64,000 bases of DNA, taken from Proteus terrae subsp. cibarius (GTDB taxonomy: Bacteria; Pseudomonadota; Gammaproteobacteria; Enterobacterales; Enterobacteriaceae). Below, piece after piece: positions 57,644-59,868 of this stretch; position 1 is the stretch's first letter, and each line of letters starts with the position of its first letter. The translations under genes were made by a program, and so were the position numbers. A model generated the notes under the pieces. It saw only the letters and a list, made by a program, of their open reading frames with translations, did not search any database and had not been told where the DNA came from. The DNA is taken from positions 1,922,001 to 1,986,000 of the forward strand of contig NZ_CP047349.1 of NCBI RefSeq assembly GCF_011045835.1. The letters are read 5' to 3'.

Positions 57644-58120
57644 CTATTTTTTATTTAATTCAGCTTCATCTATGGGAGCATAAATTAACACATGAACATC
57701 CGCTAAAGGTTCCATTGCGCTTTTAATTTTTTCATACACTATAGACCATTCTAGGCCACCTAAACCCGCCCCTAAAGGTGGGATAGCAATAGATTTAATA
57801 TTACGCTGTTTAATTTCATCAACCAGTGTAATTAATCCAGCTTCAATATCTTCAATACAACTTGCATTTCGCCAGTGTCGTTTTGTTGGGAAATTGACAA
57901 TAAAACGAGGATGAGTCGCTTTTTGTATCTCATAAATAAACATTACACCGGGTGTCAGCTCTTTATTTTTGCACGCTAAAGCATAAGCTTTAAAATTATC
58001 AGGCCATGCTTTTTTAAACTGTAAGGCGATACCACGCCCCATTACACCAACACAATTAACGGCATTTACAATCGCCTCAGTGTCTGCATGTAAAAGATTG
58101 CCTCGAGTCAGTTCTATCAT
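57644..58120 (-). CDS. Stand-alone DarG/TARG1-type macrodomain protein
   Basis: 158 residues, a single macrodomain. NAVNCVGVMGRGIALQFKKA and IPPLGAGLGGLEW are the ADP-ribose loops. FIVNFPTKRHWR holds Lys80, which corresponds to the catalytic lysine of DarG and TARG1-type glycohydrolases that remove ADP-ribose from DNA or protein. DarG normally has a second domain that binds the DarT toxin; here the protein ends after the macrodomain, and no DarT gene is near. AAGGTGA precedes the ATG. Its start is 34 bp after the ruvB stop with no terminator, so it is probably the third gene of the LexA-controlled ruvAB operon. In E. coli znuB and ruvB are direct neighbours. Confidence 0.85.
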   Translation of the reverse strand: MIELTRGNLLHADTEAIVNAVNCVGVMGRGIALQFKKAWPDNFKAYALACKNKELTPGVMFIYEIQKATHPRFIVNFPTKRHWRNASCIEDIEAGLITLVDEIKQRNIKSIAIPPLGAGLGGLEWSIVYEKIKSAMEPLADVHVLIYAPIDEAELNKK

Positions 58121-58154
58121 TTAAATCACCTTCAGCTTCATACTGATATAAATA

Positions 58155-59165
58155 TTAAGGCTCTTCTACAATACGATTAAAATGACGATAGGCGTGATTA
58201 GTGGCAACTCGACCTCTTGGTGTACGTTGAATAAAACCTTGCTGAATTAAATAAGGTTCTAATACGTCTTCTATAGTTTCTCGCTCTTCACCAATAGCTG
58301 CCGCAAGGTTATCTAATCCTACTGGGCCACCCATAAATTTATCAATGATGGCAAAAAGAAGTTTACGATCTAAGTAGTCAAAACCTGCCGCATCCACATT
58401 CAACATATCAAGCGCTTTAGAAGCAATCTCTTCATCAATGGCACCATTACCTTTTACTTGGGCAAAGTCTCTTACACGGCGCAATAATCGATTCGTAATA
58501 CGCGGAGTGCCTCGTGAACGCATAGCAATTTGGCGAGCGCCTTCGTCTGTCATCTCTAATCCCATAAAACCGGCACTACGAGAAACAATGTGCTGGAGAT
58601 CGTCAACATTATAAAACTCAAGGCGTTGAACAATACCAAAACGATCACGCAATGGAGATGTTAAAGAGCCCGCTCGGGTGGTTGCACCCACTAAGGTAAA
58701 TGGAGGTAGGTCGATTTTAATTGAACGAGCCGCTGGTCCTTCACCAATCATGATATCGAGTTGATAATCTTCCATTGCTGGGTAAAGGATCTCTTCAACA
58801 ACGGGTGAAAGACGATGGATTTCATCAATAAACAGCACGTCATGAGGTTCAAGGTTAGTTAGCATAGCCGCTAAATCACCCGCTTTTTCAAGCACTGGGC
58901 CTGATGTCGTACGTAAATTAACGCCCATTTCATTAGCAATGATATTTGCTAATGTGGTTTTACCTAATCCGGGAGGTCCAAAAATAAGCAAATGGTCGAG
59001 TGCATCATGACGTAATTTAGCCGCCTGAATAAAAATCTCCATTTGTTCTCGAACTTGCGGTTGCCCAACATATTCGGCAAGAGATTTAGGGCGGATAGCC
59101 CTATCAATAATTTCTTCTTCAGGTTGTTGAATTTCTGCTGAAATCAGGCGATCTGCTTCAATCAC
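58155..59165 (-). CDS. ruvB: Holliday junction branch-migration ATPase RuvB
   Basis: 336 residues. AAA+ features: Walker A GPPGLGKTTL, Walker B LFIDEIHRL, GATTRAGSLTSPLRDRFG (arginine finger), and a C-terminal winged helix (YLIQQGFIQRTPRGRVAT). It drives branch migration with RuvA. 12 bp after ruvA. Confidence 0.98.
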   Translation of the reverse strand: MIEADRLISAEIQQPEEEIIDRAIRPKSLAEYVGQPQVREQMEIFIQAAKLRHDALDHLLIFGPPGLGKTTLANIIANEMGVNLRTTSGPVLEKAGDLAAMLTNLEPHDVLFIDEIHRLSPVVEEILYPAMEDYQLDIMIGEGPAARSIKIDLPPFTLVGATTRAGSLTSPLRDRFGIVQRLEFYNVDDLQHIVSRSAGFMGLEMTDEGARQIAMRSRGTPRITNRLLRRVRDFAQVKGNGAIDEEIASKALDMLNVDAAGFDYLDRKLLFAIIDKFMGGPVGLDNLAAAIGEERETIEDVLEPYLIQQGFIQRTPRGRVATNHAYRHFNRIVEEP

Positions 59166-59177
59166 AATGTGTTACTC

Positions 59178-59798
59178 CTAAATAGCCGCTCTCAACGCTT
59201 CTTTAATAAGTGTTTCGCTATCTGTACCCAGTTTTGCCACTTTGCTGATCATTTTTGCAGCTTCTTGTGGCTTATAGCCTAATGCGATTAATGCAGCAGA
59301 GGCTTCAGCTTCAATATCAGCCGCTTTTGGCGCTTTAGGTGAAGTGCTTTCTGGTAGCTCGATATCACTATTTTCGAATAAATCACCATTAAGACCTTTA
59401 AAACGATCTTTCATTTCAACCACTAAACGCTCAGCGGTTTTTTTACCTACACCCGGTAATTTCACTAATGAAGTGATAGATTCATTTTCAATAGCAGTCA
59501 CGAATTGGCGAGCAGACATGCCAGATAGAATGGCTAAAGCGAGTTTAGGCCCCACACCATTTACTTTAATCAATTCACGAAAGAGTGCGCGCTCTTGTTT
59601 TTGGTTAAAACCATAAAGTAATTGAGCATCTTCGCGTACGATAAATTGCGTGTAGATAATGGCTTCTTGGCCAATATCAGGCAATTCATAAAAACAGGTC
59701 ATTGGCATATTGATTTCATAACCTACACCATTACCTGCCTCGATCAGCACCACTGGTGGCTGTTTTTCAAGAATAATTCCTCTGATACGACCTATCAC
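59178..59798 (-). CDS. ruvA: Holliday junction DNA-binding protein RuvA
   Basis: 206 residues: an OB-fold N-terminal domain (MIGRIRGIILEKQPPVVLIE), two helix-hairpin-helix motifs (IKVNGVGPKLALAILS and LVKLPGVGKKTAERLVVEM), and a C-terminal domain that contacts RuvB (ALGYKPQEAAKMISK). It binds four-way junctions as a tetramer. A LexA box lies upstream. Confidence 0.98.
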   Translation of the reverse strand: MIGRIRGIILEKQPPVVLIEAGNGVGYEINMPMTCFYELPDIGQEAIIYTQFIVREDAQLLYGFNQKQERALFRELIKVNGVGPKLALAILSGMSARQFVTAIENESITSLVKLPGVGKKTAERLVVEMKDRFKGLNGDLFENSDIELPESTSPKAPKAADIEAEASAALIALGYKPQEAAKMISKVAKLGTDSETLIKEALRAAI

Positions 59799-59840
59799 AC
59801 TAATGCCTCCGCAAAAATAATTACGCCAAGTTTATAACAT

Positions 59841-59868
59841 AAAAAAAGCTGGACGTATATCCAGCTTG
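59841..59868 (-). terminator. Terminator of ruvC (same palindrome as the LexA box)
   Basis: On the minus strand AAGCTGGA pairs with TCCAGCTT and is followed by more T's, 35 bp after the ruvC stop. The stem is the LexA operator itself. Confidence 0.8.
59849..59864 (-). promoter_or_regulatory. LexA (SOS) box of ruvAB
   Basis: On the minus strand CTGGATATACGTCCAG, matching CTG-N10-CAG and close to the SOS box before E. coli ruvA. It lies 51 bp before the ruvA ATG; TTATAAAC just downstream could supply a -10. Confidence 0.82.

Follow-up and report, generated by a model that had tools for sequence, protein, structure and literature searches.

A DarG-type macrodomain gene behind ruvAB in Proteus and its possible part in SOS-controlled reversal of DNA ADP-ribosylation

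The window analysed here is a stretch of 64,000 nucleotides of Proteus terrae subsp. cibarius (contig NZ_CP047349.1, positions 1,922,001 to 1,986,000). On its minus strand, directly behind ruvA and ruvB, lies a gene for a single macrodomain of the type found in DarG, the antitoxin of the DarTG toxin–antitoxin system, and a LexA-type box stands upstream of ruvA. We propose that this orphan gene would supply an SOS-induced enzyme that reverses DarT-type DNA damage and is made together with RuvAB. The features of the locus are as follows.

57644-58120, minus strand: macrodomain gene (orphan, DarG type), 158 codons with an ATG start, from the open reading frame list
58121-58154, minus strand: spacer between ruvB and the macrodomain gene, 34 nt, with AAGGTG at 58127-58132 resembling a ribosome-binding site by eye
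58155-59165, minus strand: ruvB, 336 aa
59178-59798, minus strand: ruvA, 206 aa, NCBIfam ruvA match of 220.8 bits against a cut-off of 85
59849-59864, minus strand: LexA-type box CTGGATATACGTCCAG, upstream of ruvA
57572-57602, no strand assigned: terminator hairpin with a T-rich tail, between the macrodomain gene and the convergent znuB

Gene arrangement at the ruvAB locus

Read along the minus strand, ruvC comes first, then the LexA-type box, ruvA, ruvB, spacer, macrodomain gene and hairpin, and finally the convergent znuB; ruvC, ruvB and znuB are named from synteny. A reading made earlier from the letters alone (the sequence-only reading) had placed the macrodomain frame on the same strand as ruvB and 34 nt behind it, and the open reading frame calls agree, the end of ruvB at 58155 leaving exactly this gap. 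The spacer measures 33-44 nt across eight orthologous Proteus loci and a remnant in a ninth genome, G012. It had also been claimed that no terminator separates the two genes. A simple scan, whose loop limit is 8 and whose list does not contain the 57572-57602 hairpin, gave no terminator-like site between them, and the fold of the 56-nt junction is not more stable than that of its shuffles (z -0.5). The hairpin lies 3' of the macrodomain gene, where a folded stretch of 66 nt reached -23.8 kcal/mol (z -6.3). The closest upstream promoter-like match on the minus strand falls within ruvB (9/12), and the whole scan returned 15 such matches against a shuffle mean of 19.4, that is, no excess. The position of the macrodomain gene is operon-like, and it would be carried on the ruvA-ruvB transcript.

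The protein belongs to the DarG class

The 158-aa protein is a single macrodomain that falls on the DarG side, as opposed to MacroD/YmdB, by sequence, predicted structure and tree. Compared with the DarG structures of Thermus aquaticus (Taq; 5m31/5m3e) and Mycobacterium tuberculosis (Mtb; 5m3i) it is 51-53% identical, and its predicted structure superposes with a root-mean-square deviation of 0.7-1.3. The structure-based comparison that could have moved the protein into the MacroD/YmdB class thus assigned it to DarG, and the former class is not supported by sequence or structure. The FPTKRHW motif is present with its lysine at residue 80, in agreement with the pattern reported from the sequence alone, and Asn22, Lys80, His82, Trp83 and Gly119 of Taq DarG are all matched; the roles of Lys80 and Asn22 in that enzyme are described in PMC5179494. 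Among the eight Proteus copies, 13 of the 14 pocket and motif positions compared are identical, the exception being position 8, which is Asp in G007. The match to the NCBIfam DarG model (NF048014) stops at position 153 of 338, from which the absence of the C-terminal, DarT-binding domain follows, as the sequence-only reading had stated. The protein is the sole Macro-family match in the window's genome. Its class, fold and residues indicate that it most likely hydrolyses ADP-ribose off thymidine in single-stranded DNA.

A LexA-type box upstream of ruvA

The predicted LexA box was recovered, with its start 66 nt from that of ruvA, and is identical in all 20 Proteus genomes surveyed, which represent one genome per species, the window's own included. 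The pattern CTGKATATNNNNNCAG occurs at 11 sites in the window's genome, while the reversed control gave none. Ten of the 14 open reading frames beside these sites were run against NCBIfam. Seven sites adjoin frames that match uvrD, dinB, sulA, ruvA, dinI, uvrA and lexA; the dinI match is weak (36 bits against a cut-off of 111). The frames of uvrD and uvrA are truncated at locus ends and score below the full-length cut-offs. The remaining four comprise one site beside a peroxidase-like frame, one beside a frame lacking a match and two lacking any tested frame. By sequence match, then, a LexA-type box stands at the promoter of the transcription unit, as in genes of the LexA (SOS) regulon, and it probably functions as a LexA operator.

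Two further observations concern these boxes. The box upstream of ruvA sits at the centre of a hairpin of 9 bp with a T-run behind it (window 59846-59867, minus strand; z -5.8), so that the operator may also terminate ruvC. Elsewhere in the genome, an 80-aa frame behind a LexA-type box (L180:1232-1471, minus strand) has no NCBIfam match and is possibly an unrecognised SOS gene.

Retention and loss within Proteus

A survey of znuB-ruvB intervals, which the sequence-only reading had called for in Morganellaceae, was run across the 20 Proteus species. The gene lies directly behind ruvB in eight of them, and every copy sits at that place. In G012 (L025:2511-2750) both ends of the gene are kept and the middle is deleted, a loss caught in the act. 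In ten genomes the interval is empty and 91-114 nt long, and in every case a terminator-like hairpin can be made out in it by eye; one genome, G016, is rearranged, with znuB not within ~1.5 kb and no match to the macrodomain gene. The P. cibi copy (G013) stops four codons early.

Could the gene be a recent arrival? Over 28 pairs its synonymous sites have diverged to a comparable degree as those of ruvA, ruvB and znuB, with scatter, and on this ground recent arrival in Proteus is not supported. Between the window and G007, the most divergent holder, the synonymous distance is 1.18 for the macrodomain gene and 1.04, 0.92 and 1.12 for ruvA, ruvB and znuB; single pairs scatter in both directions (macrodomain 0.11 and ruvB 0.34 for G000-G004; 0.64 and 0.34 for G004-G018). 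The mean ratio of non-synonymous to synonymous divergence (dN/dS) is ~0.075 (28 pairs, dS up to ~1.47), and that of the neighbours is 0.015-0.030. Taken together, these values indicate a gene that is old at this place and under purifying selection laxer than that on its neighbours.

On a tree of ruvC-A-B, occupancy needs at least four changes, three of them forced by the starred branches. A single gain without loss is rejected, since one clade of the nine holders, the G012 remnant included, has an approximately unbiased test p-value (p-AU) of 0.0004. Repeated loss or exchange among Proteus species accounts for the pattern; since this tree is built from the locus that adjoins the trait, recombination in the genus may play a part. 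The macrodomain gene tree joins G018 to G011 and G013, the ruvA and znuB trees differ, and this discordance hints at some exchange. In addition, RuvB has 336 residues beside the eight copies and the remnant and 335 beside nine of the ten empty sites (L022-L041), the exceptions being the empty G002 and the rearranged G016, both with 336. It is as if the ruvB locus had two allelic forms.

An orphan nested among DarTG antitoxins

The window's genome contains no DarT match, as the sequence-only reading had stated for the locus, and the neighbours of the macrodomain gene are ruvB and znuB. The locus is not a DarTG system because both the toxin and the DarT-binding domain are absent: no DarT gene is adjacent, and the 158-aa product lacks the C-terminal domain of DarG. 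The Proteus protein may work like the first domain of DarG. The toxin was found in two of the 20 Proteus genomes, G009 and G014. The DarGs of these two fall in a different branch of the macrodomain tree, and descent from a DarTG of Proteus's own is rejected.

In this tree of 81 sequences the eight Proteus copies form a clade (support of 100 in the Shimodaira–Hasegawa-like approximate likelihood ratio test) nested within full-length DarG. The clade sits in a supported 17-row group (96) with DarGs of Acinetobacter, Ignatzschineria, a Methylophaga genome, the Enterobacteriaceae genome G719, Vibrio and Citrobacter plasmids, and with a 160-aa Buttiauxella protein. The tree was made by a quick method without bootstrap, takes in 25 of the best 80 loci and leaves 36 of its 76 inner branches open, with a program warning about long-branch joins in other parts of it. 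Of the best 80 named loci among those listed, 76 carry a DarT-like frame by a search with a seed from L091 that Pfam confirmed as DarT, the exceptions being L070 (Proteus cibi), L111, L126 and L148. DarG accompanied by DarT is for this reason probably the ancestral state and the Proteus orphan derived. Two mobilisable ColRNAI plasmids of Citrobacter (L150 and L151; 7.7 and 8.3 kb) encode a DarTG whose macrodomain shares 72% identity with the Proteus gene; one record annotates the DarT (DUF4433) gene, and in the other a tblastn match spans the record start.

In three overlapping genome samples, drawn at the level of order (394), family (392) and class (369), matches were found in 22, 23 and 19 genomes. 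Most of those outside Proteus are open frames of 286-408 aa. Shorter frames occur in G096 (161 aa), G767 (150) and G968 (178, adjoining a contig end), and frames of 220-248 aa in G210, G220, G884 and one of two in G814. The short copies of G096 and G767 were rejected as repair-linked orphans, as no ruv genes are adjacent (neighbours judged by eye); an IS30-like transposase lies near the G096 copy. E. coli genomes gave no DNA match to 57580-58200. Among 50,697 phage records, 251 match the macrodomain at below 60% identity, 23 of them with at least 80% coverage, and Proteus phage 10 is included at 36% (example record MT661596.1:74373-74804). These phage macrodomains are possible answers to DarT or to other ADP-ribosylation.

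Discussion

We propose a model in which the N-terminal hydrolase domain of DarG, minus its DarT partner and minus the DarT-binding C-terminal domain, has been captured as the third gene behind ruvA-ruvB in an ancestor of many Proteus species. The capture is part of the explanation that we consider the best as a whole, and in which we place reasonable though not strong confidence: an SOS-induced enzyme that would reverse DarT-type damage and be produced alongside RuvAB, both the induction and the activity being predictions from sequence. The arrangement is more than chance because same-place orthologues persist in eight of 20 genomes at a dN/dS of ~0.075, and the box is identical in 20 of 20 with 11 genomic sites against none in the control.

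How would such an enzyme serve the cell? According to work on enteropathogenic Escherichia coli (EPEC) and on Taq DarT (PMC7003065, PMC5179494), DarT lesions impair replication and raise RecA, EPEC with lexA3, recA, ruvAB, ruvC or recG mutations survives DarT less well, and the DarG macrodomain alone neutralises DarT. As published for these two, replication stalls and SOS is switched on under DarT damage. Read-through from the LexA-controlled ruvA promoter, predicted from the observed arrangement, would then raise the hydrolase that erases the lesion alongside the RuvAB needed for the recombination intermediates that the lesion causes, and the outcome would be a self-limiting loop triggered by damage. 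What the cell would likely gain is protection from outside DarT, for example from the DarTG of plasmids, prophages or neighbouring cells. More tentatively, and with less confidence than in the model as a whole, a toxin–antitoxin antidote may have turned into a dedicated SOS repair enzyme, the LexA feedback loop in a core repair operon making the cell inherently resistant to DarTG plasmids, prophages and rivals armed with DarT.

Damage-induced removal of ADP-ribose from DNA with RuvAB was the central proposal of the sequence-only reading. Its protein class, residues, operon-like position and box have all held up, and the published work (PMC7003065, PMC5179494) fits, so that the proposal is plausible and supported in part. 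Several points weigh against it. Twelve of the 20 genomes lack the gene or have it in broken form, so it is dispensable, and its dN/dS exceeds that of the neighbouring genes by a factor of 2.5 to 5. Three pocket positions of Taq DarG are changed (A for T at 20, R for K at 29, L for N at 120). DarT was not found in the genomes of the eight holders (one genome per species), which makes the source of substrate hypothetical and an outside source most likely. Loss of SCO6735, a Streptomyces coelicolor macrodomain, caused no marked change in survival of ultraviolet light or methyl methanesulfonate, according to the introduction of PMC9411070. Nor is the general idea new, since the same source already provides it: SCO6735 is likewise a single macrodomain without a DarT of its own, has a DNA-damage-type promoter and reverses DarT lesions.

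What is new is the canonical DarG lineage with Lys80, the ruvAB location and the genus-wide record of retention and loss, together with the nesting of the Proteus gene among full-length DarG antitoxins in the sequence tree. With the DarG of DarTG it shares macrodomain class, Lys80 and Asn22, and differs in lacking DarT and the C-terminal domain and in sitting in ruvAB. TARG1 (C6orf130) is eukaryotic and ~22% identical to the Proteus protein; of the Lys/Asp dyad of TARG1, DarG is missing the Asp, according to PMC9411070. In one paper collection, searched partly by the titles and abstract openings listed, we found neither a ruvB-linked macrodomain nor Proteus, macro domain and ruvB together.

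An unlikely alternative is that the gene serves anti-addiction or immunity and that its SOS link is incidental, a basal level of hydrolase guarding against DarTG elements and the ruvB-znuB gap offering a safe site for read-through. Its nearest group holds the DarTG of mobilisable ColRNAI plasmids, its presence in Proteus is patchy, and chromosomal anti-addiction antitoxins are known (PMC7354431). Yet site and orientation behind ruvB are kept in 8/8 holders over synonymous distances up to ~1.47, a constancy that descent could also explain. CcdA of Erwinia chrysanthemi (same source), a chromosomal anti-addiction antitoxin, is similarly the chromosomal kin of a mobile-element antitoxin; CcdA-type antitoxins bind their toxin, whereas the Proteus protein would erase the lesion and has no binding domain. 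It is more doubtful still that the product is a general hydrolase of O-acetyl-ADP-ribose or protein ADP-ribosylation that came to lie behind ruvB by chance. It is the genome's single Macro-family protein, and adducts of both DNA and protein are substrates of TARG1 and SCO6735 (PMC9411070), but sequence and structure are of DarG class, that paper sets SCO6735 apart from DarG by its action on proteins, and 12 of 20 congeners lack an intact gene. A decaying antitoxin leftover without present function is very improbable: 11 genomes lack the gene, one holds a remnant and the P. cibi copy is four codons short, but the low mean dN/dS over 28 pairs (dS up to ~1.47) and the 13 of 14 positions identical in eight copies speak against decay.

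The locus lends itself as a natural test of the idea that bacteria handle ADP-ribosylated DNA like any other DNA damage. A probable enzyme of direct reversal adjoins RuvAB, which EPEC needs to tolerate DarT, and occupied, deleted and empty versions of one site among close species make the question testable. It also points to a core repair operon that took up a part of a toxin–antitoxin system, in bacteria only distantly related to Streptomyces with its SCO6735, and the arrangement suggests that some Proteus may make the antidote when their DNA is attacked.
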